A stretch of DNA of 64,000 nt from Rhodospirillaceae bacterium (GTDB lineage: Bacteria > Pseudomonadota > Alphaproteobacteria > Rhodospirillales > Rhodospirillaceae), in the NCBI GenBank assembly GCA_040219235.1, contig JAVJSV010000011.1, positions 744,001-808,000 on the forward strand. Reading direction: 5' to 3'. Within the stretch, counting starts at the first letter, position 1; each line of letters opens with the position of its first letter. The translations under genes were made by a program, and so were the position numbers. The notes under the pieces were generated by a model, which saw only the letters and a list, made by a program, of their open reading frames with translations, was not told where the DNA came from and searched no databases. Of the stretch, positions 1,472-39,111 are shown one piece after another.

Positions 1472-2053
1472 GTGAAGACCTCGGACCAAGCCATCATACA
1501 AATTCCGGGCTACACGCTACGATCATTGCGTCTCAGTGATGCTAAAACGCTTTCAGAGTTCTCTGAAGACGAACGCTACTGGCAGTTCTTGGCCGATGGC
1601 GCGCTTGGACCAGCACAAGCTCATGTCTTTGTTTCTGACGCGGTATCGGCGTCGATGCGCAAGGATAGCGGCGACATGTGGTGGGCCATCGAAGAGCAAA
1701 GCACACAAAAATTTGTCGGGATGGCCAGCCTTAAGCGCAATGGCAAAGTTGAACATCGCAATTACTCTGTCGGATGTGCCTTTGCACCTCATGCCCAGGG
1801 CCAGGGACTTGGAACCTCTCTTGGATGGGCTCTGATCTCGTATGCCTTTGAGTCAGTCAACGCGCATCGCGTTGAATGCAGTTGTTCCATCGATAATGAC
1901 TCTTCAGTCCACATCATGAAAAACATCTTCGGCATGACGTACGAGGGCGTTCGCCGAGAGCACCGTCTCACCTCACGCGGTTGGTGGAGTTCGCATGTGT
2001 TTTCCATTCTTGAAGATGAATTCGCCGCTAAGGCGCAAAGCGAGAACGTTTAA
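1472..2053 (+). CDS. GNAT family N-acetyltransferase, RimJ/RimL type
   Basis: This 193-residue cytoplasmic enzyme probably transfers an acetyl group from acetyl-CoA to an amine, perhaps the N terminus of a protein. The start is GTG at 1472, two bases after the chorismate mutase stop. The acetyl-CoA loop is visible as HAQGQGLGTSLGWALI (about residues 108-123), followed by the RVECSCSIDNDSSVHIMKNIFGMTYEG stretch in which an Asn-x-x-Ser region precedes the usual final strand. Both are typical of RimJ/RimL-like members. Its last four bases overlap the end of the convergent DUF1838 gene. The substrate cannot be told from the sequence. Confidence 0.85.
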   Translation: MKTSDQAIIQIPGYTLRSLRLSDAKTLSEFSEDERYWQFLADGALGPAQAHVFVSDAVSASMRKDSGDMWWAIEEQSTQKFVGMASLKRNGKVEHRNYSVGCAFAPHAQGQGLGTSLGWALISYAFESVNAHRVECSCSIDNDSSVHIMKNIFGMTYEGVRREHRLTSRGWWSSHVFSILEDEFAAKAQSENV

Positions 2054-2952
2054 ATTCCAGATTCCGTAAAAAATTTCGGATGATCTGTGTCGATTCGTTT
2101 GCGCAGCCATGACGGTATTTCGTCGACAGTGGCGATTTTCTCGGCCAGATAACGCATCATCATATGACCCGGTCTGTCCTCCATATTTAACCAACCGGAC
2201 CACGGCGTTGTCGCGGCGATATAGGCAAAGCTTTTGGCGCTCATTAATTCAGGGTTCTGAACGTCACGGATGTCGGCTGAAAATGTGATCAGTTCGGTGA
2301 GGTGACGGCCAGGCGTGTTTTCCGGGCCTGGCGTGTACATCAGGATATCATCGTTAAAAAACACGCGCCCCTCGCCGAATAAGGGCGGTCCAACAGGATT
2401 CACGAAGGCGGCAGGTGGTTCTCTTTGAATGTCGGGTGTGAAGCCGCCAGTGGGATTAATACGCACCAGCGGCCCAGGCACCGGCGCTTGATGACGGATC
2501 GGGACAAGTTCGCCCGTCAATGGGTTGTCGTAGAAGTCGTCAATCAGCGCGCCGGTTTCTGGATGCTGTGTGTAGTTACATTCGACATATTGCAAATCCA
2601 ACGTGCGGTCTTTACGCACGGTCATGCGGTGCTGGCTGACTCCTTCGCGACGGAACATTAGTTGAGCGACACCACCTGCAGGCACGCCATAAACATGCGC
2701 CACGTAATGATAAAGCCCGACCTGACCATCTAAGCGTCCACGCACCTTTGCGTAAGCGGCGAGCCAATCATAAGGGTTGGTGAAGTTGTAGGGGCCGGTC
2801 AGTGGTGCTTCCGTCTCCTGGCTCTGTGCCAGCGCATACGGGGTCAACATTGAAGATCCAAGCCCTGCACCCGCGGTTGCGGCAGTTGCGGCAGACAAAA
2901 AGCGACGACGGCTGAGCGTTTTGTTGATCGGGCGATTGAGGGACGGAAACAT
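2050..2952 (-). CDS. DUF1838 family secreted protein, short subtype
   Basis: This 300-residue protein begins with a twin-arginine-type signal (SRRRFLSAA at residues 14-22, a hydrophobic stretch, then ALAQ as likely cleavage site), so it is probably exported folded. The body matches the DUF1838 family: FTNPYDWLAAYAKVRGRLDG, a GVPAGGVAQLMFRREG-like stretch, ETGALIDDFYDNPLTGE, and a TTPWSGWLNMEDRPGHMMMRYLAEK segment near the end. It lacks the C-terminal PGGV tail of the longer paralogues in the window. The family has no known function. It is divergent from the long DUF1838 gene at 3136, with 183 bases between them for promoters. The closest subtype relative in the window is the gene at 36204. 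Confidence 0.82.
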   Translation of the reverse strand: MFPSLNRPINKTLSRRRFLSAATAATAGAGLGSSMLTPYALAQSQETEAPLTGPYNFTNPYDWLAAYAKVRGRLDGQVGLYHYVAHVYGVPAGGVAQLMFRREGVSQHRMTVRKDRTLDLQYVECNYTQHPETGALIDDFYDNPLTGELVPIRHQAPVPGPLVRINPTGGFTPDIQREPPAAFVNPVGPPLFGEGRVFFNDDILMYTPGPENTPGRHLTELITFSADIRDVQNPELMSAKSFAYIAATTPWSGWLNMEDRPGHMMMRYLAEKIATVDEIPSWLRKRIDTDHPKFFTESGI

Positions 2953-3135: not shown

Positions 3136-4149
3136 ATGACACTCAAGGCAATCAGCATGCCGCTCGTCAATCGCCGCCAGGCCCTTCAATTTGCTTCTGG
3201 CGTTGGAATGGCGACTGCGGCCTCTGGTATTCTATCGACACCTGTTGAGGCAGTTGGCGGCATGGGGAATGATGCGCGTATCAACGGGCCATATCTTGAT
3301 CTCCGCACCAAAGAAGGCAACATGATCGCCAGTGGCCGTATTTACGGGAACACCGATGCCGGTGTGCCGAAGTTCGGCTGGTATGATGGCTATGTCATGG
3401 GCGTTGCGCCCGGTGGTCCGGTTAAAAATATCTGCGGCTTTAAAGGTATGAGCTCAGCCAAGCTGATTCCGAATGAGGGCAAGCCCGGATGGCGCAAAGT
3501 GTTGCGCGAAGTTGGCTATTACTACGACCTCAAAACCGGTGAAATTTTAGAAGAAATGGTCAACCCATACACCGATGAAAAAGTGCGTGTCGTTCATGTG
3601 GCCAACGATCCGTTTAACCAGACCATCGAGCCGTATTATCCGCCACCGCCCAACTACGGTGGATTGAATGAGCAGACAGAGCCGATGCCGCAAATTCCAA
3701 TTATTCTGGAATGGAACGTCTCGGGCGATAATCGTTTGTTGATGGAGCGCCATATTCACCTGTTTTATCCGTCGGCGCTTGAACCCGGAAAATGGGTTAG
3801 GGAAAGTGCTGGCCCGATGAATCGCGTGTCAGAGATGTTCTTCTTTAACATGTCGTTGGAAGATATGCAGAACCCGGAGCTCACCTCAGTTGAATATTCC
3901 GGCACTTGGGCACGCATTACGCCGTGGTTGCCGTGGATGCTGATGGGCCAAGCGCCTGGCAATGTTGTCTATCAAACCTTCATGGGCGGCTACGACAGCC
4001 TTGAGGACATTCCCAGTGATATCGTTGAGTACACCGCCAAAAACTATCCGAAGTACCTGACACCGCCACCGGAAGACTATGGCCCTTCTTTATCCAGCCT
4101 GGAAAATTACGCGCGCGAGCAAGAGCCAGTTCAGCCTGGAGGCGTTTAA
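3136..4149 (+). CDS. DUF1838 family secreted protein, long subtype
   Basis: This is a 337-residue exported protein. It starts at an ATG with a good ribosome site (GAGGGAG) and a twin-arginine-like signal (NRRQALQFA, residues 12-20) ending near TPVEAVGG. Segments shared with three paralogues at 18591-21903 are FGWYDGYVMGVAPGGPV, ICGFKGM, GEILEEMVNPYTDEKVR, ANDPFN, ESAGPMNRVSEMF, ARITPWLPWMLMGQAPG and a C-terminal SLSS-x-E-x-YAREQEP-x-x-PGGV signature. Function is unknown. A strong terminator follows 20 bases after the stop, so it appears monocistronic and is divergent from the short-subtype DUF1838 gene at 2050. Confidence 0.85.
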   Translation: MTLKAISMPLVNRRQALQFASGVGMATAASGILSTPVEAVGGMGNDARINGPYLDLRTKEGNMIASGRIYGNTDAGVPKFGWYDGYVMGVAPGGPVKNICGFKGMSSAKLIPNEGKPGWRKVLREVGYYYDLKTGEILEEMVNPYTDEKVRVVHVANDPFNQTIEPYYPPPPNYGGLNEQTEPMPQIPIILEWNVSGDNRLLMERHIHLFYPSALEPGKWVRESAGPMNRVSEMFFFNMSLEDMQNPELTSVEYSGTWARITPWLPWMLMGQAPGNVVYQTFMGGYDSLEDIPSDIVEYTAKNYPKYLTPPPEDYGPSLSSLENYAREQEPVQPGGV

Positions 4150-13809: not shown

Positions 13810-15339
13810 TCAGTCTGCGACTTCAATCAGATGATACATAAATCTGTCATTGCGCGGCTGCCAGGTGGTGACGCGCTTGTGCACGCCATCCAGTCCGGCA
13901 ATCGGAAACAGAAACAGAGATTGTGCAACATTCCGGTAGTGGCGCACCACCTGTTGCGTCAGGCGTGTGCGTTCTTCCAGATCAAACGTGCGCTCCGCAC
14001 GGTCAATCACCTTTTGAATCTCCGGATCGCAGAACCACGGACCCGTGCCAGTGCAGGCATGGTTGGTGATGAGCATTGGCTTGAGGGCGTCAGCGAAGCG
14101 GTTGGTGAAGTCCATCAAAAATCCATCGCCGCCCAAATCGCCCAGAGTCGTACGTCGCAACAATTGGGGATAGGTAATCAGCCGCACGTCCATGTCCATG
14201 CCCGCGACAGAAACGTCTGCGGCAATTTGCTGCAAGATTGCCGTGTCATTGGGTAATGTGCCAGACGGCGATTCAATGACGAACGACACACCATCGGCAT
14301 ATCCGGCTTCGGCCAGCAGGGCGCGGGCTTTGTCTGGGTCGTAGGGATAGGGGTCCAGCGCAGGGTCGTAGCCAACGGAAAACGGTAAAGCAGGCTGGCT
14401 TGCAGGTTTGACCAGGCCCGCCAGCAGCACGGCGGTGATCGCCTCTTTATTGACGGCATAATTAAACGCCTGTCGCACGCGCACATCAGAAAAAGGCGAA
14501 TTTGGGTCGTTAGATTTCAGAGCGAACACCAGCACGCGCGTTGGATTGCGCATCACGGCGCGATGTCCATTCAAGTCCAGCATATCTATTTGATCTGTGC
14601 TGATGGCTACGGCAACATCCACCTGCCCCGTTTCGAGGGCCTGCAAGCGCGCTGTGGAATCGGGCACAAAATAGACTTCCATGCGGTCGACGCGCGGCGC
14701 CCGCCATGAGGTCCTGTTGGCGCGCAACGTCACCTTGTCAGAATCCCAGCGGTCCACCACAAAAGGTCCACTGCCGATCGGTTCATTAATCAAGCCGGCA
14801 ATGCCGTTCTCTTTTACGTGATCGGGTGGGGCAATCGGCAAGGCCGACAAATAGGCCGGCGTCAAAATGTTTGGCTCTGAGGTATGAATGGCGATGGTGA
14901 GCTCATCGACGACTTCAACGCGCGGATAGCGCACTCTCTCGCGAAACCAATACAGGGCGTTGACGGGATCATCTCGCGCGATATCGAAGACCGTTTTGAT
15001 GCCCTGGGCCGTTAGTTTTTCGCCATTAGAGAACACCACGTTGGGCCGCAGCTTGAAGTGCCACTCCGTTTCGGAAACCGGTTCCCAGGAGAGTGCGATC
15101 TCGGGCACCACCTCACCATTCTCATCGATATCGGTCAGGCGGTCGTAAATCGCGGTCCAGAATAAGGTTGGGGTGATGCCGGTGGTGAAGAAGGGGTTGC
15201 CCTTTGTGGGGGGCGCGGCATTCAAGGCGAGGCGGAACGTGGACTCAGCCTGGGCTCCCGGCGTGATCAGGAGTAACGGTACAGCCATAGCCACAGCAAC
15301 AGCGGTAAAAAGGGTCTGGCGGAGGTGTGCGATGTTCAT
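13810..15339 (-). CDS. ABC transporter substrate-binding protein, peptide/nickel family (tandem paralogue)
   Basis: This is a paralogue of the gene at 12262, with the same order of motifs (WHFKLRPNVVFSNGEKL, EPIGSGPFVVDRWDSD, VRVRQAFNYAVNKEAI, YPYDPDKARALLAEAGYADG) and nearly the same C terminus (SLFLFPIAGLDGVHKRVT). The ATG at 15339 is preferred over a GTG at 15363, because it places a standard signal peptide (ending PGAQA) at the N terminus. About 509 residues. The two probably bind related ligands and may share a permease encoded elsewhere. The upstream gap to the GFA gene is about 120 bases and may hold the promoter. Confidence 0.9.
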   Translation of the reverse strand: MNIAHLRQTLFTAVAVAMAVPLLLITPGAQAESTFRLALNAAPPTKGNPFFTTGITPTLFWTAIYDRLTDIDENGEVVPEIALSWEPVSETEWHFKLRPNVVFSNGEKLTAQGIKTVFDIARDDPVNALYWFRERVRYPRVEVVDELTIAIHTSEPNILTPAYLSALPIAPPDHVKENGIAGLINEPIGSGPFVVDRWDSDKVTLRANRTSWRAPRVDRMEVYFVPDSTARLQALETGQVDVAVAISTDQIDMLDLNGHRAVMRNPTRVLVFALKSNDPNSPFSDVRVRQAFNYAVNKEAITAVLLAGLVKPASQPALPFSVGYDPALDPYPYDPDKARALLAEAGYADGVSFVIESPSGTLPNDTAILQQIAADVSVAGMDMDVRLITYPQLLRRTTLGDLGGDGFLMDFTNRFADALKPMLITNHACTGTGPWFCDPEIQKVIDRAERTFDLEERTRLTQQVVRHYRNVAQSLFLFPIAGLDGVHKRVTTWQPRNDRFMYHLIEVAD

Positions 15340-15460
15340 GGGCTGTATCGTAGCCCTGAACACACGGCAAAATGAAGGGGGAGTTGCCCGTGTTCATATA
15401 TCGAGCTTGTTTTGCCTGGCTTTTAACAGAAATCGGCATTTAATCAGTAAAGTCACACTT

Positions 15461-16280: not shown

Positions 16281-16391
16281 GACCGGCTCCTCCTGGTTGT
16301 CTCATGTTATGTTCTATTTGTTTGACTCTAATCATGGCTGGAAAAACCTGTCTGTCTAGACTGTCTGAATGCTTAATACAGGAGAATGGTG

Positions 16392-17294
16392 ATGGCCGCT
16401 GAACATCGCACGACGGAACAAACCCCAAACGTCAAAGCCTTCTTTGACTCTGAGACCAACACCATCAGCTATGTGGTGCGCGATCCCGCCAGTTCGGCAG
16501 CCGCAATTATCGACTCAGTTCTGGATTATGACCCCAAGTCGGGGCGGACTTCGACCACCTCGGCGGACAAAATCATCACTTATATCCAGGAGCACGGGTT
16601 GAACGTGCGGTGGATTTTAGAAACCCATGTCCATGCGGATCACGTAACAGCCGCACCTTATTTAAAAGGTAAGCTTGGTGGGCAGACCGCCATCGGATCA
16701 CAGATCACTAAAGTCCAACAGGTGTTCAAAAAACTGTTCAATGTGGAAGACAGTTTTAAAACCGATGGCTCACAATTCGACGTGCTGTTGGCGGAGGGTG
16801 ATACCTTTGAAATCGGCAATCTAACGGGGCGCGTGATACATACCCCCGGTCATACGCCCGCCTGCTCCACCTATGTGATTGGCGATGCGGCGTTTGTTGG
16901 CGATACACTGTTCATGCCCGACTACGGCACAGCCCGGTGTGATTTTCCCGGAGGTGACGCAGCCACCTTGTATCAGTCCATTCAGAAAGTGTTTGCCCTT
17001 CCGCCGGAGACGCGCCTGTTTATGTGCCATGACTATTTGCCCGAGGGCCGAGAGACCTACCAGTGGGAAACCACGGTGGCGCAAGAACAAGCCACCAATG
17101 TGCATGTTGGCGCGGCGGCTCCGAGTGGCAGCACTGAATCAGCCTTTGTTGCCATGCGTCAAAAACGCGATGCCACTTTGGACATGCCCGTGCTGCTGCT
17201 GCCGTCGGTTCAGGTCAACATGCGCGCTGGTGCGATGCCGCCTCCAGAAGATAATGGCATCTCTTATCTTAAAATACCGCTCAACGCTGTTTAG
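16392..17294 (+). CDS. MBL-fold persulfide dioxygenase-like hydrolase
   Basis: This 300-residue enzyme resembles the ETHE1/Blh group, which oxidises glutathione persulfide to sulfite and glutathione during sulfide detoxification. Visible motifs are ETHVHADH (metal ligands at residues 79-84), HTPGHTPAC, GDTLFMPDYGTARCDFPGG and the late CHDY His. The ATG at 16392 is chosen over one at 16386 because the AGGAG site is seven bases upstream of it. Two YeeE/YedE genes follow, the arrangement known for Blh-PmpAB sulfur loci in alphaproteobacteria. No BigR-like regulator gene is next to it. The activity is inferred from family and context. Confidence 0.88.
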   Translation: MAAEHRTTEQTPNVKAFFDSETNTISYVVRDPASSAAAIIDSVLDYDPKSGRTSTTSADKIITYIQEHGLNVRWILETHVHADHVTAAPYLKGKLGGQTAIGSQITKVQQVFKKLFNVEDSFKTDGSQFDVLLAEGDTFEIGNLTGRVIHTPGHTPACSTYVIGDAAFVGDTLFMPDYGTARCDFPGGDAATLYQSIQKVFALPPETRLFMCHDYLPEGRETYQWETTVAQEQATNVHVGAAAPSGSTESAFVAMRQKRDATLDMPVLLLPSVQVNMRAGAMPPPEDNGISYLKIPLNAV

Positions 17295-17385
17295 GCTGGG
17301 CAGGCCCCAATGAGGGGCAGAGACTGACTGTTTGTTGATCCTTGTCAGCCGAAGGTGCCCGCTGCCAAGATAAAGGAGAAAACCG

Positions 17386-17826
17386 ATGCATACTTCAATC
17401 ACAACATTTACCCCCGTCAGTGCGCTTGTGGGCGGGATTCTCATTGGCGCTGCGGCTGTTTTGCTGATGCTTTTCCTCGGCCGGATTGCTGGCATAAGTG
17501 GCATCGTTGGGGGCGTTTTGAAACCGAGCCAAAACGATGTGGCTTGGCGGCTTGCCTTTGTTTTTGGCCTGCTCATCGCTCCCATTGGTGTGTGGGCTGT
17601 GACGGGCAGTCAGCCGATCGTCACCGTTCAGGCTTCGACGCCACTGTTGATGGCCGCCGGGCTTCTGGTCGGTCTGGGCACCCGCATTGGGTCAGGCTGC
17701 ACCAGCGGACATGGGGTCTGCGGGATGGCGCGTTTGTCTCGCCGGTCAATTTTAGCGACCTTCACTTTTTTAGCCGCCGGTGTGGCGACGGTCAGTGTGA
17801 TGCGTCATGTCCTCGGAGGGCTGTGA
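17386..17826 (+). CDS. pmpA: YeeE/YedE family sulfur transporter, first half
   Basis: This is a 146-residue membrane protein with about four helices, from the YeeE/YedE (DUF395) family that moves thiosulfate or related sulfur species. The hallmark Cys motif is GLGTRIGSGCTSGHGVCGMARLSRRS near residues 95-120, matching the first repeat of the family. Family members exist as full-length fused proteins or as two half-size proteins; here it is split, with the partner starting one base after this stop. A good AAAGGAG site precedes the ATG. The symbol follows the half-size pair described beside Blh. Confidence 0.85.
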   Translation: MHTSITTFTPVSALVGGILIGAAAVLLMLFLGRIAGISGIVGGVLKPSQNDVAWRLAFVFGLLIAPIGVWAVTGSQPIVTVQASTPLLMAAGLLVGLGTRIGSGCTSGHGVCGMARLSRRSILATFTFLAAGVATVSVMRHVLGGL

Positions 17827-17827
17827 T

Positions 17828-18283
17828 ATGAAACGCGTTGTAATAGCTTTGATCTGCGGCAGTGTTTTTGGGGTTGGGTTAACACTGTCAGAGATGGTGA
17901 ACCCTGCAAAAGTACTCAATTTTCTGGACGTCTTCGGCACATGGGACCCCAGCCTGATTTTGGTCTTGGGTGGGGCCGTTGTCACAACTTTTATTGGCTA
18001 TCAATTGGTTCTCAAGCGCGCGTCACCGATTTTCTCTGATGCCTTCCAACTCCCGACCGCAAAGGATTTTGACTCCCGCCTTGTGACCGGCGCAATCCTC
18101 TTTGGTGTTGGGTGGGGGCTGGTCGGCTTTTGTCCTGGCCCAGCCCTCACAGCTTTGCTGATTGGCGGTGAGCCTGTCGTCTATCTTGTTTTATCGATGA
18201 TTGTCGGCATGTTTTTGGCGGATCAACTGTTCTCCCCAAAGGTCCAAAAACCACATCATCGTCACTCCAAAAGCCGACCTTAG
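17828..18283 (+). CDS. pmpB: YeeE/YedE family sulfur transporter, second half
   Basis: This 151-residue membrane protein is the second half of the split YeeE/YedE transporter. The signature GLTLSEMVNPAKVLNFLDVFGTWDPSL is near residues 15-42, and GWGLVGFCPGPALTAL (about 97-112) carries the second conserved Cys. It starts one base after pmpA, and an open frame beginning at 17807 overlaps pmpA but only the ATG at 17828 gives a normal helix start. Together with pmpA and the persulfide dioxygenase it should handle uptake or export of sulfane sulfur. The charged, His-rich C-terminal tail is not part of the conserved family. Confidence 0.85.
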   Translation: MKRVVIALICGSVFGVGLTLSEMVNPAKVLNFLDVFGTWDPSLILVLGGAVVTTFIGYQLVLKRASPIFSDAFQLPTAKDFDSRLVTGAILFGVGWGLVGFCPGPALTALLIGGEPVVYLVLSMIVGMFLADQLFSPKVQKPHHRHSKSRP

Positions 18284-18590: not shown

Positions 18591-19691
18591 ATGACAGATG
18601 CAACGGGGCCAAACGGCAATATAGAAGTCCGCACCGGTTTGGTGGTCGAGGATTACGATAGTCTCGGCGGTCCGGCCACCAGCCTCAGCCGCCGTCAGGC
18701 CTTGGGAGCAGGCATGGCGGGAGCGGGCCTAGCTGGAGCCGGCATGGGCGGCGCAATGGCCGGCCTCGGCATGGCAAGTGGCGCAAGCGCGGCCACGCCT
18801 GATCTTAACAAACGGATTGAGAACGCGTCGCTAACCGGTCCTTACCTCGATCTCACCACGCCCGAAGGCAATATGATCGCCATGGCGCGAATCGATTCCG
18901 ACATCGACATGAAAACCACCACTTATGGCTGGTACGACGGCTTGGTCATGGGGGTTGCCCCGGGCGGTCCCGTCAAAAACATCTGCGGCTTTAAAGGCAT
19001 GAGTTGCAAGCGTCTGATTCCCTATGAAGAAGGCACCGGCTATCGCAAATTGCTGCGCGAAGTGGGCTTCTACTACGACCTCGCCACCGGTGAGATTTTA
19101 GAAGAAATGGTCAACCCCTACACCGATGAAAAAGTCCGTGTCGTGCATGTGGCCAATGATCCCTTTAACGGCATCATCCGCGATGTGGTGCCGCCCGGCC
19201 CATCTTACGGCGGTCTCAATGCAGAGAAGCGCGAACCCAAGCCGTTCCTGTTGGACTGGCAGATCAAGGACGAGTGGTTACTGTTCCAGCGCCACATTCA
19301 TCTTTACTACAAGAACGCCCTCGATCCCGAAAAATGGGTGCGGGAAAGTGCCGGTCCCATGAACCGGGTGTCAGAATTGTTCTATCATGTGCATTCGCTG
19401 GATCAGGTGCAGAACGAAGAATTGACCCATGTTTACGGCACCGGCACCTGGGCGCGCATTACGCCCTGGTTGCCGTGGATGCTGATGGGGCAAGCGCCAG
19501 GGCATGTGGTGTATCAAACCTTTATGGGCAGCCGTCATTCGCTGGATGATATTCCTCAGGACATTGTTGAATATACGGCGAAAAATTATCCGAAATATTT
19601 AGAAGCGCCGGATGTGTGGGAAGAACCATCACTCTCCTCCATTGAGCGTTACTCCCGCGAGCAGGAACCTGCGTTGCCGGGTGGTGTTTAG
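18591..19691 (+). CDS. DUF1838 family secreted protein, long subtype (array member 1)
   Basis: A 366-residue exported protein and the first of three tandem paralogues. The twin-arginine-like signal is unusually far in (SLSRRQALGAG, residues 32-42) and is followed by a Gly/Ala/Met-rich hydrophobic stretch ending near ASAATP. The body shares with the gene at 3136 TTYGWYDGLVMGVAPGGPV, ICGFKGM, GEILEEMVNPYTDEKVRVV, ESAGPMNRVSE and ARITPWLPWMLMGQAPG. It ends in the SLSSIERYSREQEPALPGGV signature. Of the array it is closest to the gene at 3136, both keeping NPYTDEK where the other two have NPFTGEK. A palindromic repeat separates it from the second member. Confidence 0.86.
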   Translation: MTDATGPNGNIEVRTGLVVEDYDSLGGPATSLSRRQALGAGMAGAGLAGAGMGGAMAGLGMASGASAATPDLNKRIENASLTGPYLDLTTPEGNMIAMARIDSDIDMKTTTYGWYDGLVMGVAPGGPVKNICGFKGMSCKRLIPYEEGTGYRKLLREVGFYYDLATGEILEEMVNPYTDEKVRVVHVANDPFNGIIRDVVPPGPSYGGLNAEKREPKPFLLDWQIKDEWLLFQRHIHLYYKNALDPEKWVRESAGPMNRVSELFYHVHSLDQVQNEELTHVYGTGTWARITPWLPWMLMGQAPGHVVYQTFMGSRHSLDDIPQDIVEYTAKNYPKYLEAPDVWEEPSLSSIERYSREQEPALPGGV

Positions 19692-19703
19692 GATAAATTC
19701 AAA

Positions 19704-19798
19704 CTGTCATGCTCGGATTTAGTCCGAGCATCCAGGGTCATTAACGAAAATCGTGGTTGTTGTCCTGGACCCTCGGAACAAGCCCGAGGGTGACATAG
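19704..19798. repeat. Palindromic intergenic repeat with two hairpins
   Basis: Two strong hairpins, GCTCGGA-TTTAG-TCCGAGC (19711-19728) and CCCTCGG-AACAAG-CCCGAGGG (about 19770-19790), are enclosed by TGTCA (19705) and TGACA (19793-19797) ends. This resembles a class of palindromic units scattered between genes in many alphaproteobacteria. If read as protein it gives the familiar VVVLDPRNKPEG nonsense, so it should not be added to the next gene. Confidence 0.75.
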
Positions 19799-19815
19799 TG
19801 AGAAGAGGAAATATT

Positions 19816-20838
19816 ATGACCAAATCAAATCAGCCGAATGAAGCCGCCGCCATCGAAGGTGCGCCCATCGAAGTCGCAATCGACCGCCGAGCAGCATTAG
19901 CAACTGGCCTCGCTGCCGGGTTCCTTCCCGCCGCAGCCATGGCCGCGACCGATGCCACCGGCGGTGCCTCGCTTACGGGGCCGACCTATGATCTCACAAC
20001 AGCCTATGGCAACGTCGAAGCCTACGCCAAGGCGACCTCAAATCTGGATATGAAATCCACGCACTACGGTTGGATTGACGGGCATGTCATGGGCGTTGCG
20101 CCCGGCGGGCCGATCCGCACCTTCTGTGGCTTTCGCGGTTTGGGCGTGACGCGCTTGATCCCGCTGGAAGGCGAGCACGGTTATCGTCGTTTGCTGCGTG
20201 AGGTTGTGTTTTACACTGATCTGGAAACCGGCGAGATTCTGGAAGAGATGGAAAATCCGTTCACCGGCGAAAAAGTGCGTGTGGTGCCCGTCGCCAACGA
20301 TCCGTTTAACCGCATCATCAGAGAGTCTGAACTGAGCCGGCCGACCTTTGGTGGCCTCAACACCGATGAAAAGTTGGAGCCGAAGCCATTCATCCTCAAC
20401 TGGAAAGCCTTTGGCGACCGGCTGATGATGGAGCGTCACATCAACCTCTATTATCCCAATGCGCTCGATCCCAAAACATGGGTGCGCGAAAGTGCCGGGC
20501 CGATGAACCAGGTGACAGAAACCTATGTGATGAACATGAGTCTCAAGGATATTCAGAATCCAGACCTGACCACCGTCGACAGCACCACCGTCTGGGGCCG
20601 CCATACGCCGTGGCTACCGTGGATGCTCATGGGCCAAGCCCCCGGTCATTGCTTGTACAACGTGATGGCTGCCAGCATGCACTCGCTCGAGGAAGCGCCA
20701 GACCAGCGCATCATCGAATATATTGCTAAGAACTACACCAAATTCCTGGACGCCCCGACCGAGTGGGAAGAGCCTTCCCTGTCGTCTCTGGAATGGTATG
20801 CCCGAGAGCAAACTCCCGCACCCCCAGGCGGTGTCTAA
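19816..20838 (+). CDS. DUF1838 family secreted protein, long subtype (array member 2)
   Basis: A 340-residue exported protein. The ATG at 19816 is chosen because AGAAGAGGA lies just upstream; the open frame extends back through a palindromic repeat to a GTG at 19753, which is not a credible start. The signal has DRRAALATGLAAG (residues 23-35) and ends near AAMAATD. The body carries HYGWIDGHVMGVAPGGPI, FCGFRGLG, GEILEEMENPFTGEKVRVVPVANDPFN, ESAGPMNQVTETY, HTPWLPWMLMGQAPGHCLYN and the SLSSLEWYAREQTPAPPGGV ending. It is closest to array member 3, sharing MENPFTGEK and HCLYN. Function is unknown. Confidence 0.87.
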   Translation: MTKSNQPNEAAAIEGAPIEVAIDRRAALATGLAAGFLPAAAMAATDATGGASLTGPTYDLTTAYGNVEAYAKATSNLDMKSTHYGWIDGHVMGVAPGGPIRTFCGFRGLGVTRLIPLEGEHGYRRLLREVVFYTDLETGEILEEMENPFTGEKVRVVPVANDPFNRIIRESELSRPTFGGLNTDEKLEPKPFILNWKAFGDRLMMERHINLYYPNALDPKTWVRESAGPMNQVTETYVMNMSLKDIQNPDLTTVDSTTVWGRHTPWLPWMLMGQAPGHCLYNVMAASMHSLEEAPDQRIIEYIAKNYTKFLDAPTEWEEPSLSSLEWYAREQTPAPPGGV

Positions 20839-20889
20839 GCTCTGACCTGAACTATTTGATTCACAGCCAGTCTTGAAAGGCCAATTGTA

Positions 20890-21903
20890 ATGTCTGAGAA
20901 AAAACTCATCGAAAGTGTGCTGGACCGCAGATCCGCACTCGCCGCGGGAATGGCCTTTACCGGCCTGCCAGCTCTGAATGCCGTTATATCGCCGAGTGCC
21001 GCAAATGCCGCTACGGCCGGTCCCGACAGTTCTTGGTTGCGTGGCCCAACCCATGACCTGACGACGGGACGCGGTAACGTTGATGCCTACCTCAAGCTCA
21101 CGTCTAACCTGGATATGGAATCCACACACTTCGGTTGGATCGAAGGCTACGTCATGGGGGTCGCACCAGGTGGCGCGGTCAGAAACATTTGCGGCTTCCG
21201 GGGACTCGGCTGTAACCGCTTGCTCCCTTACGAAGGCGATGAGTACGGATATCGGCGTGTGTTACGTGAAATCGTGTTTTACACCGATCTCGAAACCGGT
21301 GAGATTCTGGAGGAAATGGAGAACCCGTTCACCGGAGAAAAGGTGCGCGTGGTGCCGGTCGCCAACGATCCCTTCAACGCAATCTTCAAAGATGTCTGGC
21401 CAGACCCACCGTCATACGGTGGCCTCAACACAGAGAAGCGTGAGCCACGTCCGTTCATTCTCAACTGGCAGCAAATCGGCCAGCACGCGATGATGGAAAT
21501 CCACGTGCATCTTTATTACCCCAACGCTCTTGATCCTCAGAAGTGGGTACGCGAGAGCTCTGGCCCGATGAACCGGGTGACAGAAACCTTTAACTATTCG
21601 TTCTCTCAAGCGGATCTGCAGAACCCTGACCTGACCACGATTCCCAGCACGGGTGTTTGGGGGCGGGTCACGCCATGGCTCCCATGGATGTTGATGGGGC
21701 AGGCCCCAGGTCATTGCCTTTACAACTGCAACTTTGCGGATGTGAAGAGCCCTGAAGAAATGCCGGATCAGAAGATCATAGAGCATATCGCCAAGAACTA
21801 TCCGAAGTTCTTAGATGCGCCGACAGAATGGGAAGAGCCATCTTTGTCCTCCCTGGAATGGTACGCCCGCGAGCAAGAACCCGCCCCACCGGGAGGTGTT
21901 TAA
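20890..21903 (+). CDS. DUF1838 family secreted protein, long subtype (array member 3)
   Basis: A 337-residue exported protein, 51 bases after array member 2 and probably on the same transcript. The twin-arginine-like signal is DRRSALAAGMAFTG (residues 12-25), ending near ANAATA. It shares FGWIEGYVMGVAPGGAV, ICGFRGLGCNRLLP, MENPFTGEKVRVVPVANDPFN, ESSGPMNRVTETF, RVTPWLPWMLMGQAPGHCLYN and SLSSLEWYAREQEPAPPGGV with its neighbours, making members 2 and 3 the youngest-looking duplication. A large imperfect stem-loop follows the stop. Function is unknown. Confidence 0.87.
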   Translation: MSEKKLIESVLDRRSALAAGMAFTGLPALNAVISPSAANAATAGPDSSWLRGPTHDLTTGRGNVDAYLKLTSNLDMESTHFGWIEGYVMGVAPGGAVRNICGFRGLGCNRLLPYEGDEYGYRRVLREIVFYTDLETGEILEEMENPFTGEKVRVVPVANDPFNAIFKDVWPDPPSYGGLNTEKREPRPFILNWQQIGQHAMMEIHVHLYYPNALDPQKWVRESSGPMNRVTETFNYSFSQADLQNPDLTTIPSTGVWGRVTPWLPWMLMGQAPGHCLYNCNFADVKSPEEMPDQKIIEHIAKNYPKFLDAPTEWEEPSLSSLEWYAREQEPAPPGGV

Positions 21904-21979: not shown

Positions 21980-22028
21980 AAAAACAAAAGGCTGCATGTG
22001 TTAAAATAAAGTCATGGAGGGCGGCGTC

Positions 22029-23036
22029 ATGAAGCTAAGATCAATCGTGATGACTCCTTTGGCCGCACAGTCTGGCGCGGCACTGGTTGCGCTGGTCTTG
22101 GGGGTGATCTCAGGGCCAGCGTGTGTTGAGGCCGCTGCACCGGGTGAGTCTTTCCAAGACTGCGATACCTGCCCGGAGATGGTCGTCGTGCCCGCCGGGC
22201 AGTTCATTATGGGGACCGCAGAGTCAGAGGCCGGGCGGCTGAGCAATGAAGGCCCGCAGCGCGAAGTCACGATTTCAAGGGCCTTCGCGGTTTCCAAATA
22301 TGAAATCACCATTGGTCAATACCGGCAATTTAGCGAAGAAACCAATCGCGGCGTTAGAAACAACAATTGTGTGGTTGTGACCGGCCTGCGCGGCGGTGAG
22401 CCGGTGCAAGGTAAAAGCTGGGAAGACCCAAATTATGTGGTCGGCGAAGATCACCCCGTTGCCTGTATCAGTTGGAATGACTCCCAAGATTTTGTCGACT
22501 GGCTGACCAAAAAAACCGGCAAGCCCTATCGACTGTTAAGCGAAGCCGAATGGGAGTATGCGGCGCGCGCGGGCACCAGCACGCGGTATTCCTTTGGGAA
22601 TGATGAAGTTGAGCTTTGCGACTACGGCAATGTTCCAGACCTGACGGCAAAAGCGGAGATGGCAACAAAAGACGGCTGGTCCCCTTGGCTGTATGTTGAC
22701 TGTGACGATGGCTATGGCCTGCGGTCAGCGCCTGTCGGAACGTACAAGCCAAACGCTTTTGGCCTCTACGATATGCATGGCAACGTGTGGGAGTGGGTGG
22801 AAGATTGCTACTATGAGAGTTTTGCCGGTGCGCCGAAAGACGGCTCTGTTTGGGGCTCAGACGACGCCTGTGTGCATGTCGTGCGGGGCGGAAGTTTAAG
22901 TGCACCTGTGAGCGCGAGCCGTTCGGCCATGCGCTTCGGGGGTACGACAGAGCTGCGCGGACCTGCGGCAGAGAAAGCGCCTAAAGAGTGGCACAACTTT
23001 AATTTGGGTTTACGCATTGCCAGAGGCGTTAACTAA
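22029..23036 (+). CDS. SUMF1/FGE-like secreted protein (formylglycine-generating enzyme fold)
   Basis: A 335-residue protein with a signal peptide (hydrophobic stretch to about CVEAAAPG). The body is the FGE-sulfatase fold: MVVVPAGQFIMGTAESEAGR, ISRAFAVSKYEITIGQYRQF, HPVACISWNDSQDFVDWLTKKTGKPYRLLSEAEWEYAARAG, DMHGNVWEWVEDCYYES and a final VRGGSLSAPVSASRSAMRFG with GLRIARG. True FGEs convert a sulfatase Cys to formylglycine; many homologues have other roles, and no sulfatase gene is nearby. The ATG at 22029 is preferred over 22014 because GGAGGG lies seven bases upstream. It may share the DUF1838 array transcript. Confidence 0.87.
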   Translation: MKLRSIVMTPLAAQSGAALVALVLGVISGPACVEAAAPGESFQDCDTCPEMVVVPAGQFIMGTAESEAGRLSNEGPQREVTISRAFAVSKYEITIGQYRQFSEETNRGVRNNNCVVVTGLRGGEPVQGKSWEDPNYVVGEDHPVACISWNDSQDFVDWLTKKTGKPYRLLSEAEWEYAARAGTSTRYSFGNDEVELCDYGNVPDLTAKAEMATKDGWSPWLYVDCDDGYGLRSAPVGTYKPNAFGLYDMHGNVWEWVEDCYYESFAGAPKDGSVWGSDDACVHVVRGGSLSAPVSASRSAMRFGGTTELRGPAAEKAPKEWHNFNLGLRIARGVN

Positions 23037-23381: not shown

Positions 23382-26198
23382 TTAGTAGGTAAACCGCACA
23401 CCCGCTTTCGCTGTGAACGAGTATTCTTCGTACTGCAGCAAGCGGTCGGAGACCGGGCCGCGCTGGAAGGCCACATAAGGTTCGTCGGTGATGTTGATCA
23501 ACTCGGCAAACACCTGGAACTGATCGGTCACGCGGTACTTGGCGCTGGCATCCAGTTGGAAATGGCTCTTCACAAAGCGGTCTTCATCCGGGCTGCCGGC
23601 CAACTCGTCCAGGTAGCTTGAACGGTAGGCTCCGGCCAAGCGCAACGACAGCGGGCCTTTCTCATAGCCCAATGTGGTGTTGAAGGTATGCTTGGAACTG
23701 GCCGGCAGATCAATCTTGCGGCCGTCAACCGTTCCTTCGCTGTCGGTGAAGGTGTAGTTAAAGCCCACCAGCACGCCGTCCCATGGCCCGGGCAGGAAGT
23801 CCATGACCTGCTGATAACCGAACTCTGCACCAAACACTTCAGCGGACTCGCCGTTCACCGGAATGGTGGCTTCATCGGCAAAGATGCCGTTAAAGGTCAG
23901 GTTGTCCACTTCGGTGATGGCGATGAAGTCTTTGATGTCTTTGTAGAACAGGCCGCCCTGCAAAACCCCGGCGTTGTTAAAGTACCACTCAACGCTGACG
24001 TCGCCGTTCCAGGCTTTGTAGGGGCGTAAGTTGGGGTCGCCAAACTCGCCTTCACGTTCGCCGTCATCGTTTTCCTCAATCACAAACCGCGGCGCGATCT
24101 GGCCGATGTTCGGGCGCACCACACTGCGATAGAGGCCGGCGCGCAGCAGCACGTCATTCTCGGTTTCGTAGGTCAGGTTCACACTTGGCAGCCAGTTGGT
24201 GTAGCTGTTGTCAAAGGTGTTTGGCGTGACGAACACGGTGTCCTCATCCAACTCAACACCGTTGCGGGTGCCGCCTTCTTCCACCAGCTCAACAAGGCTG
24301 CCGTTGATGTCATCTTTGGTGTGTTCAACGCGCACACCGCCGATGGCCTTCAAAGACCCATTGTCGTAGCGGCCCATGATGTAGCCGGCGTAGATGTCTT
24401 CATCGACACTAAAGTCCGCCGTGGCAGAGTCGAACACGCCGTCAATGTCGTCATTGTCAAACGCCGACAGGTTGCCGTTGATCAGCTCACGCAGGGCGAG
24501 CGGATCAACTTGCGGCGCAATGTTCGCCAGGCCGTAAGTGCCGGAGGTGGCAAATTGGGCCAGGGTGGTGTCTTCCAACGGACCATCGCTGAGGAATTCC
24601 ACATTAAAGTCGTACTGCTTTTGACGCAGGCGCGCCTTGCCGCCGAATTTGAGGTCCATCACGGCGCCATCGTCGAGCACAAATTGACGCGTTAAGTCCA
24701 GCTTTGCACCCCATTCCTCGTCGGTTGAGTCGGACAGGATTGTGCGCTCAATCTGATCGAACTCATAAGTGTTGGGGTCGGCAAAAGCCGCTTGACCGGC
24801 GATGATATTAAAGGACGGCAGTTTGTAATCGGAGTAATCGAAGGTCACGCCGAGCTGGCCTGGTTCTTCAAACGCAGCCACATAGGTGGTGGGATCAAGC
24901 GAGCCGTTTTCCAGTTCGCTGGCCTTGGAGTATGAGCCTGAGTATTCAAACGTCCAGGCGTCTTTGAACGTCTCACCGCCGGTGACCAGGGAGTAAATTT
25001 TCTGCACTTCAAAGCGGTCTTTGATGTCCCGCTCGATTTCAATTTCGCCATCGTCGGACAGGAAGGTCGCGGTGGTTGCCGTGCCGCTTGAGGGCTCTTC
25101 GTCCAGCTTAAAGATCAGGCGGCCGCGGAATTCCTGATCGCCGAAACGGCTGTAGAGGCCGCGCGCGTACAACTCAGTGTTTTCGCTGGGGCGCAGGTCC
25201 ATCGACAGCGAAGCCCCAAGGCGCGAGCGGCGCACGTCATAGTCACGATATTGAATTTCATCGGCATAGGTCACGCCGTCGTCAGTGGTGTCCCAGCCTT
25301 CCGGCTCGATGTTGTCGGTCGAGAACGAGCGGCGGTAGTATGACAGACCGCCGGACACGCCGAACTTTTCACTGAACGCATGGCTGAAGTCGACGCCGCC
25401 TTTGGGCGACAGCTTATCATTCAGGTCGTTGTAAGAGCCTTCCAGCGTGCCGCCGAAAAAGGTGCCCTCGCGATCAAACGCGCTGGTGGTGTTGATTTCA
25501 ATGGACGCACCGATGGTGTCGGCATCCATGTCCGGGGTCAGGGTTTTGGTAATCTCAATGGACTCAATCAGTTCAGAGGGAATCACGTCCAGCGCCACCG
25601 AGCGCACGTCGCTCTCCGGGGCCGGCACGCGCGCACCGTTGATGGACGCGGAGTTCAGGTTAGGGTCAAGCCCGCGCACGGCAATAAACCGGCCTTCGCC
25701 CTGGTCATTCAGCACGTTCACACCGGTCACTCGGCGCACGGATTCCGCCACGTTCTGGTCCGGGAACTGGCCGATGGAATCGCGGGTCAGGATTGACTTA
25801 ACCGTATCAGCCGCACGCTGCCGCGACAGGGAGTTAGAAACATTCGCGATCTGGCCGACGACGATCACTTCTTCAATGGCCGTGCCTAAGCTGGCGTCTG
25901 CCGTGGTGATGCCGTCGCCGCTCACCACAAGCTGCTGCTCCAGAACATCCGCATTAATATAAGTAATGCGCAAGGTGTAAGTGCCGGGCTCGACATCCGC
26001 AAAGCGGTAGCTGCCGTTTTGAGCTGTTGATGTGCGGCGGTTGAGCTCAACAATTTCAACCCGTGCGCCGGACAATGACGTAACGCCCGCCGTGTCACTC
26101 ACCCGCCCGATGACGGTGGCCGCCTCAGCCGCAAATGGAACACCAGCAAACAATGCGATGGCTGCGGCAGACGCCCGCAACGAAGTCTTAAACGACAT
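23382..26198 (-). CDS. TonB-dependent receptor (Xanthomonas/Caulobacter type) with carboxypeptidase-like N-terminal domain
   Basis: A 938-residue outer-membrane active transporter. In order: signal peptide (ending AAEAAT), a carboxypeptidase regulatory-like beta-sandwich (about residues 28-105, ISGARVEIVELNR to LRITYIN), the TonB plug (EEVIVVGQ near residue 110, then SIGQFPDQNVAESVRRVTGV, FIAVRGLDPNLNSASING, IESIEITKTLTPDMDADTIGASIEI) and a 22-strand-type barrel ending in aromatic FTY. This subfamily imports organic ligands. It is divergent from a phytase gene, the pairing seen for phytate use in related bacteria, so phytate or its breakdown products are the likely substrate (inferred). Confidence 0.93.
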   Translation of the reverse strand: MSFKTSLRASAAAIALFAGVPFAAEAATVIGRVSDTAGVTSLSGARVEIVELNRRTSTAQNGSYRFADVEPGTYTLRITYINADVLEQQLVVSGDGITTADASLGTAIEEVIVVGQIANVSNSLSRQRAADTVKSILTRDSIGQFPDQNVAESVRRVTGVNVLNDQGEGRFIAVRGLDPNLNSASINGARVPAPESDVRSVALDVIPSELIESIEITKTLTPDMDADTIGASIEINTTSAFDREGTFFGGTLEGSYNDLNDKLSPKGGVDFSHAFSEKFGVSGGLSYYRRSFSTDNIEPEGWDTTDDGVTYADEIQYRDYDVRRSRLGASLSMDLRPSENTELYARGLYSRFGDQEFRGRLIFKLDEEPSSGTATTATFLSDDGEIEIERDIKDRFEVQKIYSLVTGGETFKDAWTFEYSGSYSKASELENGSLDPTTYVAAFEEPGQLGVTFDYSDYKLPSFNIIAGQAAFADPNTYEFDQIERTILSDSTDEEWGAKLDLTRQFVLDDGAVMDLKFGGKARLRQKQYDFNVEFLSDGPLEDTTLAQFATSGTYGLANIAPQVDPLALRELINGNLSAFDNDDIDGVFDSATADFSVDEDIYAGYIMGRYDNGSLKAIGGVRVEHTKDDINGSLVELVEEGGTRNGVELDEDTVFVTPNTFDNSYTNWLPSVNLTYETENDVLLRAGLYRSVVRPNIGQIAPRFVIEENDDGEREGEFGDPNLRPYKAWNGDVSVEWYFNNAGVLQGGLFYKDIKDFIAITEVDNLTFNGIFADEATIPVNGESAEVFGAEFGYQQVMDFLPGPWDGVLVGFNYTFTDSEGTVDGRKIDLPASSKHTFNTTLGYEKGPLSLRLAGAYRSSYLDELAGSPDEDRFVKSHFQLDASAKYRVTDQFQVFAELINITDEPYVAFQRGPVSDRLLQYEEYSFTAKAGVRFTY

Positions 26199-34563: not shown

Positions 34564-34698
34564 TGGGGTTTCTCGATTCTAGCGTAATCCAACCTGCGGC
34601 GGGTCAGTTAATTGTTGGGCATTTATCTGTTTTCAAGCGTGACTCCCTGGAAACCAGCGTGATTTAATCTTCTCAGTGTTGAGGGAGGATATCGGATC

Positions 34699-35571: not shown

Positions 35572-35672
35572 TCGAAGCAGGCGCTTTAGTGTTGGTCGCG
35601 TGCTTTTTCTTGCACTTTTTCATCAGCAGTCTATGACCTAACTGTGCTGAACCGACCGTGAGAAGAGGCGTT

Positions 35673-36200: not shown

Positions 36201-36203
36201 GTT

Positions 36204-37052
36204 TTACGCCCACGGGTCGTCTATAAAGCCCGGGCGACGATCATCTAAAAATGCTTTCACACGCGCCGGAATTTCAGCCGTGCTCGCCAATTTGCGACCG
36301 ACCAGTTCAAAGCTGCAAACGCCAGCCCGTTGCCCCATGCGCATCCATGGGTACCATCCGCCAATAGATTGATAATGCAAAGAGGTGGGCACGAAATCTT
36401 GATCAAGGTCGTTCAACTCGGCGCGATAGGTCGCGAGGGAAGTGCTGGACTGCACAGGACCCTGATAGGTCAGAGGGTCAGCAGCCGGGTTCGGTTCTGG
36501 CCGAATGGATTTTGTGATCAGACGCTCCTGCGACCAAATCACCGGTCCATTGATAATGGGCTCTGTGATTTCGCCCTCAATGTGGCGCATCTTTGCCATG
36601 CGGTCGACCGGGACGTCCCATTGACCGTTCGCATCAAAGGATAACTCTTGCGAGGACTTAAAATGTGTTGGTTCGCAGGCTAGTCCATTCATGGGGTTTA
36701 CCCAGCTATCGGCCAGTTCACCGGTTTTGGGGTCTTGCCAAAATCCGCACTCGATCATCTTTTGGTCAACGCCGCCGTTATCGCGCAGGGTCATGGTGTT
36801 GAAGCTAAGACCATCAACCCTAAACAGTTGGCGGGCAATCTCGCCCTCTGGTTTGCCCCAGTACGCCCCGCTGTAGGCCCAGAGGCCATCGCTGCCATCC
36901 AGGTTGCCACGCAGTTGAACATAGAGTTTGTTCTTGTTGATTTCGCTTTGTGCGAAGGCTTTTGCTGATGAAAGCCCCAAAAGTCCCATGCTGGTCAGTC
37001 CACCAGCCAAAGCCGTGCGGCGGGTCAGGGGTGTGAGCGGTCGAAGCGTCAT
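36204..37052 (-). CDS. DUF1838 family secreted protein, short subtype
   Basis: A 282-residue exported protein with a twin-arginine-like signal (TRRTALAGGLT, residues 10-20, ending near AFAQSE). The body shows the family pattern in a shorter form: LYVQLRGNLDGSDGLWAYSGAYWGKPEG, QLFRVDGLSFN, DPKTGELADSWVNPMNG and a YQSIGGWYPWMRMGQRAG segment that corresponds to the TPWLPWMLMGQAPG block of the long paralogues. It lacks the C-terminal PGGV tail. It is convergent with the thioredoxin-like gene, 3 bases apart, and is the most isolated DUF1838 member here. Function is unknown. Confidence 0.8.
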   Translation of the reverse strand: MTLRPLTPLTRRTALAGGLTSMGLLGLSSAKAFAQSEINKNKLYVQLRGNLDGSDGLWAYSGAYWGKPEGEIARQLFRVDGLSFNTMTLRDNGGVDQKMIECGFWQDPKTGELADSWVNPMNGLACEPTHFKSSQELSFDANGQWDVPVDRMAKMRHIEGEITEPIINGPVIWSQERLITKSIRPEPNPAADPLTYQGPVQSSTSLATYRAELNDLDQDFVPTSLHYQSIGGWYPWMRMGQRAGVCSFELVGRKLASTAEIPARVKAFLDDRRPGFIDDPWA

Positions 37053-37082
37053 AGAAATGCTCTTTCTAGGTCGAAAAGCTGT

Positions 37083-37481: not shown

Positions 37482-37570
37482 GATAAACCTCGTGTGTAAT
37501 TTGTCTGCCGCTCTGTCATTATAGAGCCATTATGAGAGTAGGCTGTGTCACCGGCAATGGGGAAAGCAAA

Positions 37571-38062: not shown

Positions 38063-38091
38063 AAATACAAGTTCAATAGGGAGGTCAGGTC

Positions 38092-39093
38092 ATGCGGATG
38101 ATTTTGATTGCGACTATATCGCTGCTGATGTCGATGTTTGCAGCGGCTTCAGCCCAGGCGCAAACGTTTAGTAAGGGCGAGCTTGAAGGCCATCTGCGGT
38201 TAATCATGCAATGGTGGCCCGGTGAGTATGACAATCACGAACAGATCGTGCGTCAATCCGGTGGTGGTATTTCTGTCCACGTTTACGAACCAGTGTTCCG
38301 CATCCATTCCCATTACGTCACGCTGGATATGCCTGAGTTGGGCGATAACGTCCTGTATGTGGAAGAATATCTGAACAACGACCCGGCAAATATTTCACGG
38401 ATCCGGATTTATAATCTCAGTGTCGACGAGGCGGAGCAGGCCGTAAAAGTGCAGCTCTATGCGTTCAAAGAGGGTCATGATCACATGGTTGGGGCACGCC
38501 TTGACCCTGAGCGTTTGTCTGACATTAAACTTGATGAACTGCGGGCGTTCTCTGAGCCATGCACAGTTTATATGCGCTATGAGGGCGGGCAGTTTAATGG
38601 CGGCATGAAGCGGGACTCCTGCGGTGATAAAGAATGGTTTGAATACCAAGTCGTGCTCGGTTCCGACTACAACTGGACTCGTGACCGACTGATCAGCCGT
38701 GAGACCGGTGAGGTGACTTGGGATCAGACAGAAGGCGCGAACTATGCCTGGGTTCAAATGCGCAAAGCGCGCTGGTTTGTCTGCACCGTGAATTACAATC
38801 TTGAAGGTGACATGCGTAAGACAGAGTTTCTGACCGAGATCGAAGTGCATGACCAGGGTGGCCAGACCGATATCGCGTGGCCCGATGGGCGGACCTTGGA
38901 ATTTCAATTGCATACGCGCGAGTTTTCATCGCCCTCCGAACGTGAGTTTCCGTTGTTCCGGATTCATGAAAAAGGTAACTACGTTCCTATCGGTTATGGT
39001 TATGCCGTTGATGATGCTGACCGCTTTGGCCTAAATCTGGGATGGTTTTATACGCTCTGCCGTCTCAAAGACCAGGGAGCGCCGCGGCCATAA
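38092..39093 (+). CDS. CpcT/CpeT-like secreted protein
   Basis: A 333-residue protein with a signal peptide (SAQAQ, about residue 24). The region LIMQWWPGEYDNHEQIV through HVYEPVFRI, DNVLYVEEYLNN, ISRIRIYNLS and VKVQLYAFKEGH (about residues 38-130) follows the CpcT/CpeT beta-barrel family. In cyanobacteria CpcT is a phycobilin-protein lyase; here there is no phycobiliprotein and the protein is exported, so the role must differ (inferred: binds a hydrophobic ligand). Cys residues at the SCGDKEW and FVCTVNY segments may form a disulfide. A GGGAGG ribosome site precedes the ATG. Confidence 0.75.
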   Translation: MRMILIATISLLMSMFAAASAQAQTFSKGELEGHLRLIMQWWPGEYDNHEQIVRQSGGGISVHVYEPVFRIHSHYVTLDMPELGDNVLYVEEYLNNDPANISRIRIYNLSVDEAEQAVKVQLYAFKEGHDHMVGARLDPERLSDIKLDELRAFSEPCTVYMRYEGGQFNGGMKRDSCGDKEWFEYQVVLGSDYNWTRDRLISRETGEVTWDQTEGANYAWVQMRKARWFVCTVNYNLEGDMRKTEFLTEIEVHDQGGQTDIAWPDGRTLEFQLHTREFSSPSEREFPLFRIHEKGNYVPIGYGYAVDDADRFGLNLGWFYTLCRLKDQGAPRP

Positions 39094-39111
39094 GGGCTGT
39101 CGCAGGTACGT

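Follow-up and report, generated by a model that had tools for sequence, protein, structure and literature searches.

The locus

The window, a stretch of 64,000 nucleotides from a Rhodospirillaceae bacterium (contig JAVJSV010000011.1, positions 744,001 to 808,000), carries six genes of the DUF1838 family, three of which stand in tandem at 18591..21903. This trio is part of a lineage-specific multiplication of the family, of which 43 open reading frames (ORFs) were found in the bacterium's own genome. A first-pass annotation had placed a trio of long-subtype genes here and three further copies elsewhere in the window. All six ORFs were confirmed at their positions (Table 1), the tandem arrangement was borne out, and every copy matches the Pfam family PF08894 (60.4-156.4 bits; cut-off 25 bits). 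The twin-arginine (RR) signals ascribed to all six copies were also found, with the motifs SRRQAL, DRRAAL, DRRSAL, NRRQAL, SRRRFL and TRRTAL. Of these, the textbook RRxFL pattern is limited to the copy at 2050, which scored 22.7 bits with the NCBIfam TAT signal domain (cut-off 16.7).

Table 1. Positions of the DUF1838 genes and selected neighbours in the window.
Feature	Position	Strand	Remarks
DUF1838 long type, trio gene 1	18591..19691	+	366 amino acids (aa); SRRQAL signal; PF08894 152.5 bits
DUF1838 long type, trio gene 2	19816..20838	+	PF08894 140.8 bits; mechanical ORF from GTG 19753
DUF1838 long type, trio gene 3	20890..21903	+	PF08894 155.8 bits; mature part modelled
DUF1838 long type	3136..4149	+	PF08894 156.4 bits; divergent pair with short copy 2050
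DUF1838 short type	2050..2952	-	300 aa; SRRRFL signal; PF08894 60.4 bits in two stretches
DUF1838 short type	36204..37052	-	PF08894 67.9 bits in two stretches; mature part modelled
Exported FGE/PvdO-like protein	22014..23036	+	PF03781 188.7 bits (cut-off 23.3); 110 bases past trio
TonB-dependent receptor	23382..26198	-	PF00593 127.4 bits, Plug 54.2 bits; convergent with trio-FGE group
CpeT/CpcT-family protein	38092..39093	+	PF06206 67.5 bits; Sec-like leader; family multiplied in genome

The second gene of the trio most likely starts at ATG 19816, as read from the sequence, because AGAGGA precedes this codon and the extension to GTG 19753 crosses an intergenic repeat. The repeat (window 19710-19795, between trio genes 1 and 2) has palindromic stems by eye and reads LDPRNKPEGD in the frame of the mechanical ORF. 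A repeat consensus had one match in the window (3 mismatches) and none in 100 shuffles. The genes of the trio are separated by 124 and 51 bases, and a scan of the window found no plus-strand terminator-like site inside it; both points would fit a single transcript without proving one. The promoter and terminator scan of the window gave no excess over shuffles, and no Rfam family reached its gathering score there. The pairing of a short minus-strand with a long plus-strand gene, as at 2050 and 3136, recurs in loci L013, L014, L016, L021 and L031.

Multiplication of DUF1838 in one lineage

In the own genome (3,972,475 bases, 99.85% complete), a PF08894 search gave 46 stretches, 45 of them above the cut-off, which were merged into 40 genes. 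A second profile, made from 54 members (118 trimmed sequences thinned to 54, matches under 200 aa dropped) was run on 30 stretches of this genome only and identified 43 ORFs in them, three of which come from this profile alone, with no Pfam score. The window copies had been taken for a six-member local family, a view that does not hold: they are 6 of the 43. DUF1838 thus accounts for about 1% of the genes in this genome (an estimate from 43 ORFs in 4 Mb), and most bacteria do not have the family.

The profile search across related genomes that the first-pass annotation had suggested found 28-47 PF08894 stretches in each of the six genus-mates. Among relatives, DUF1838 was present in 19 of 148 genomes (own included), all in one family and in six genera by genome codes. 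The proportion was 13 of 225 genomes in the order and 5 of 397 in an evenly drawn sample of the phylum (completeness at least 90%), the five being the own genome and four others with one stretch each. At least two copies also occur in some other bacteria, as on a plasmid of Novosphingobium sp. P6W with three places. The 78 named long-type loci, from the best 80 of 328, belong mostly to uncultured "Rhodospirillaceae" and other Alphaproteobacteria known as metagenome-assembled genomes (MAGs), to Sphingomonadaceae/Sphingomonadales and to Gammaproteobacteria. Isolate names indicate that the lineage is probably marine.

The copies are clustered in the genome beyond chance. Nine neighbouring pairs lie less than 2 kb apart among the 43, and 2,000 random placements gave a mean of 1.4 and a maximum of 6 neighbours with starts less than 3 kb apart.

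Age and descent of the trio

Judged by its phylogeny, the trio is best read as a gathering of old paralogues from three separate lineages, because its members group with orthologues of other MAGs and two of the types lie on separate contigs in three genus-mates. In a FastTree tree of 158 rows, whose deep joins are unsure and for which matches under 200 aa were dropped for loci of other genomes, the 18591 copy groups with L032 and L021 and not with its tandem neighbours (best identity 95%, to L032). The copy at 19753/19816 groups with L032 and L013-L018 (best identity 92%, to L032), and the 20890 copy with L019, L011, L009, L010 and L012 (best identity 87%). In three of the six genus-mates (G002, G004 and G006), the 20890 type and the 19753 type are on separate contigs, and in G003 all three types share one contig, the third being interrupted by a stop; this sorting of types, by identity to one query, is rough.

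The earlier view of the tandem copies as an array that evolved together does not agree with these three paralogue lineages, nor with a 20890 type that sits on another contig in half of the genus-mates. An ordinary recent tandem amplification, with no functional divergence, could be suspected from the tandem placement and from the identity of genes 2 and 3 (71-72%). It is highly improbable: trio members are 87-95% identical to orthologues elsewhere and 58-71% identical to their tandem neighbours, they fall into separate sets, and the tree rejects it. Trio gene 3 is interrupted in L032:7908-8953 and in G003:C23:13357-13917, which may be one genome; an assembly error is possible.

Export signals

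A home-made rule for twin-arginine translocation (Tat) signals, requiring an RR motif, a hydrophobic stretch and an AxA-like site, was passed in its strict form by 34 of the 43 own copies, including all six of the window, and by 33 of the 382 remaining ORFs on the stretches that carry these copies. Of the nine copies that did not pass, three carry RRxF and are lost at the fifth position, another three resemble Sec signals on inspection (two of them also by rule), and the last three have no signal, one of these near a contig end. The RRxxL pattern was seen in 76 of 118 sequences from relatives. From these signals we infer Tat export, in which DUF1838 precursors would fold in the cytoplasm before they cross the membrane.

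Tat-like leaders in the own genome were also found on a zinc alcohol dehydrogenase, two short-chain dehydrogenases (SDRs), an aldo-keto reductase, two proteins resembling S-adenosylmethionine (SAM)-methyltransferases (one of which was Pfam-scanned) and alpha/beta hydrolases. Apart from the hydrolases, these lie at L100:9098-10243, L108:12687-13499, L113:9412-10326, L119:2460-3500 and L110:9908-12324.

Subtypes and predicted fold

The division into long and short subtypes was upheld: identity to the 20890 copy is 53-71% for the other long window copies, and the two short ones share 28% and 25% with the 18591 copy. The C-terminal tail and the TPWLPWMLMGQAPG block described for the four long window copies are indeed common to all of them. 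The tail had been taken as a sign of a special role for the window copies, which is not supported, given its presence in 54 of 67 DUF1838 ORFs of fetched loci from other lineages, a sample biased to the long type since the loci were located with long-type patterns. In the own genome it is limited to the four long window copies (4 of 43). A role as an array-specific anchor was rejected on its spread in other lineages. The tail reads as part of the predicted fold, because its block has a predicted local distance difference test score (pLDDT) of 84-96 in the 20890 model.

AlphaFold2 models of the mature 20890 and 36204 proteins had mean pLDDT values of 95.5 and 93.4 and predicted template modelling scores of 0.90 and 0.87. 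Structure prediction and fold comparison, as had been proposed, point to a barrel with binders among its fold matches. The 50 matches listed include CpeS, CpcS-type lyases, nitrobindin, UnaG, a Riemerella haemophore and the OssO spirocyclase; CpcT itself and the CrtC/AttH-type lipocalins are not among these 50, which does not imply their exclusion. The search for solved structures related by sequence found none, with one chance-level row. Sequence kinship of DUF1838 with CpeT was unsupported (hhalign probability 0.5%, with 3 CpeT sequences only on the other side), as was kinship with DUF3598. Across 54 diverse members, a Trp-rich loop (WxPWMxMGxxxG) and two acidic positions, Glu127 and Glu232 as numbered in the 20890 precursor, are conserved in 49-54 sequences.

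The reading we favour, with confidence a little short of even, is that exported, pocketed DUF1838 barrels bind and in part transform small organic molecules, and that the paralogues widen the range of substrates. The mature protein would be a calycin-like barrel of the lipocalin or fatty-acid-binding-protein type, whose pocket could hold a small, largely hydrophobic organic molecule. Glu127, Glu232 and the loop may line or close this pocket, and at least part of the paralogues would transform the bound molecule.

It is also possible, if rather unlikely, that DUF1838 proteins are non-enzymatic, lipocalin-like exported carriers that ferry hydrophobic ligands from a TonB receptor to an inner-membrane transporter or enzyme. 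UnaG and the haemophore are binders, and the receptor and transporter genes that neighbour DUF1838 in other lineages (below) would suit such a role, whereas the conservation of the acidic residues and the loop exceeds what is expected of a plain carrier. A periplasmic shuttle is also a less natural fit for the Streptomyces members, which lie at a lanthipeptide locus and within the aurantimycin cluster.

Tetrapyrrole proteins are well represented among the best fold matches (CpeS, CpcS-type lyases, nitrobindin, UnaG, the haemophore), and the CpeT family, multiplied alongside DUF1838, resembles T-type bilin lyases. DUF1838 barrels that handle scavenged tetrapyrroles (haem, bilins, chlorophyll breakdown products) are nevertheless quite improbable: the calycin fold binds many ligands, and no haem-uptake or bilin gene was noticed beside the copies, with no search made for them.

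Neighbours and co-multiplied families

The DUF1838, CpeT-like and FGE/PvdO-like families are co-multiplied. The own genome has 15 matches to the CpeT/CpcT family and 19 to the FGE family (two stretches in one frame merged on C7, two in one 796-aa frame kept separate on C11). Among 61 relatives (own included), CpeT occurs in 12, namely in 12 of 14 DUF1838 carriers and 0 of 47 others (Fisher P 5e-11), and the median number of FGE-family stretches is 18.5 in the carriers and 2 in the non-carriers. DUF1838 copy number correlates with that of CpeT and of FGE across the 14 carriers (rho 0.70, P 0.006 each), the DUF1838 input being matches within the genus and first-look candidates in the remaining genomes; shared ancestry inflates all these statistics. 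The g2 carriers G007 and G029, of the same genus code, differ in all three families together.

Physical closeness in the own genome is weaker than this association in copy number. Within 3 kb of DUF1838 lie 5 of 19 FGE stretches (against 1.28 expected; P 0.007 as the best result in 12 tests), a modest link, and 3 of 15 CpeT genes (0.97 expected, P 0.07). For amine oxidases the count was 3 of 14 places, the 7 weakest of 22 rows being left out, with P 0.026 for a distance of 1.5 kb and 0.073 for 3 kb. The amine-oxidase family has about 14 strong places in this genome (C8, C11, C12, C16 and others), some as tandem pairs. SBP_bac_5, with 48 stretches, was rejected as a physical partner, since it showed no enrichment within 1.5-6 kb (4 of 48 at 3 kb, P 0.4); within 10 kb the count was 14 of 48 (7.9 expected, P 0.02).

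Neighbourhoods in other genomes were compared over 78 loci, of which 22 were assigned by record title to the window's lineage and 56 to others, with related loci not independent. In the 56, genes adjoining DUF1838 and genes three or more away differed for the major facilitator superfamily (MFS; 22/117 vs 6/368, P 5e-10), TonB receptors (9/117 vs 7/368, P 0.005) and IclR regulators (6/117 vs 1/368, P 0.001). With the same profiles, neither MFS nor IclR genes adjoined DUF1838 in the window's lineage (0/66 each), where TonB receptors and serine hydrolases were each found at 5/121 within two genes and 0/145 beyond (P 0.019 each). Beta-lactamase-fold hydrolases were not enriched in the other-lineage loci, nor were the methyltransferases of the Tat-leader cluster beside DUF1838 in either set. 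Novosphingobium sp. P6W has the order receptor-DUF1838-DUF1838, followed by a serine hydrolase gene on the opposite strand. Leader-bearing SDRs and amine oxidases lie near DUF1838 in the gammaproteobacterial loci L056, L069, L072 and L076, and so do a leader-bearing SDR (L110) and an amine oxidase (L114) in the own genome; the pairs compared were 35% and 41% identical. A Streptomyces member stands beside class III lanthipeptide genes.

In the window, the SUMF1/FGE-like exported protein reported after the array was confirmed by its Pfam score and a Sec-like leader seen by eye. It scored 243.4 bits with the NCBIfam PvdO model NF051459, under the cut-off of 500. The FGE active-site cysteine pair, which we take to belong in the segment after RGGS, is missing there: this segment, RGGSLSAPVSASRSAMR, has no Cys. 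Directly before the trio (16386-18283) lie genes for a metallo-beta-lactamase-fold protein and a DUF6691 protein, and between them two ORFs in different frames, 17355-17831 and 17386-17826, overlap. Around the short copy at 36204 (33418-40509) are genes for a Rieske/VanA-type oxygenase, a MAPEG protein, a glyoxalase-fold protein, the CpeT-like protein and an FAD-linked oxidase, in an order that partly recurs in L013-L016. Two SBP_bac_5 genes are on the minus strand (12262-13782 and 13810-15363), and no permease-like gene was seen beside them.

A proposed exported pathway

As part of the favoured reading, substrates would cross the outer membrane via TonB receptors and be processed in the periplasm, where DUF1838 would act alongside exported amine oxidases, SDRs, serine hydrolases and FGE-like proteins. 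The products would then be imported by MFS or solute-binding systems. Differences among the pockets of the paralogues may broaden the range of substrates. The earlier idea of sub-specialised paralogues in exported work is supported.

A wider proposal, which we consider doubtful, is an exported metabolism in which typically cytoplasmic enzymes with Tat- or Sec-like leaders near DUF1838 (short-chain and zinc alcohol dehydrogenases, aldo-keto reductase, amine oxidases, SAM-methyltransferases, alpha/beta hydrolases) act in a periplasmic pathway. The DUF1838 (43), CpeT-like (15) and PvdO/FGE-like (19) proteins would be its catalysts or scaffolds, and cofactors would be exported pre-bound by Tat. 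Tat export of an enzyme containing nicotinamide adenine dinucleotide phosphate (NADP) has a precedent in glucose-fructose oxidoreductase, according to an entry among the references of PMC6708511.

The opposite direction has also been weighed, in which the system builds and performs exported tailoring of secreted natural products, as PvdO does in pyoverdine maturation. The PvdO score of the FGE-like neighbour, the OssO spirocyclase among the fold matches, the member beside lanthipeptide genes and ArtU, a DUF1838 protein in the aurantimycin cluster table (PMC5031334), speak for this. The MFS, TonB receptor and IclR neighbours in other lineages fit uptake better, the PvdO score stays under its cut-off, and no nonribosomal peptide synthetase or polyketide synthase was noticed among the window genes annotated or read, with no search aimed at them; we regard exported tailoring as unlikely.

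Should the barrels prove to be enzymes or selective binders, as favoured here, the lineage would amount to a natural collection of 40-odd pocket variants and offer a direct handle on how uncultivated bacteria use chemically diverse dissolved organic matter. Two further multiplied families, CpeT-like and FGE-like, are linked to this nearly undescribed one, whose predicted fold offers a path from an unknown domain to testable ligands.

Comparison with known systems

Calycins of the nitrobindin, Rv2717c and UnaG type are small single barrels with 9-12% identity to DUF1838 in aligned parts. Unlike the S- and T-type phycobilin lyases (CpcS/CpeS, CpcT/CpeT), most DUF1838 copies have Tat-like signals. 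No sequence relation to these lyases was detectable, with few CpeT sequences compared, and a phycobiliprotein partner was not noticed, no search having been made for one.

Periplasmic PvdO acts in pyoverdine maturation. The trio is similarly adjoined by an exported FGE-like protein that scores with the PvdO model, though below its cut-off, and another Pvd partner was not noticed, again with no search. ArtU of Streptomyces aurantiacus is likewise annotated as DUF1838; it differs in its length of 248 aa and its place in a biosynthetic cluster, and its function is not stated in the table (PMC5031334). That entry is the single mention of DUF1838 found in the open-licence PubMed Central (PMC) literature, in which "PF08894" had no mention and nothing was found on gene family expansion of periplasmic calycins in bacteria.

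A parallel in kind is SAR202 (Chloroflexota), whose ancient, diverse enzyme paralogues have been proposed to extend the variety of organic molecules that it can use (excerpts of PMC6946804). The SAR202 families named in these excerpts are known enzymes (flavin monooxygenases, enolase-superfamily racemases, ring-hydroxylating dioxygenases), whereas DUF1838 has no known activity and most of its members look exported. Both cases concern an uncultivated lineage, marine in SAR202, with linked expansions of several families (excerpts of PMC6946804).

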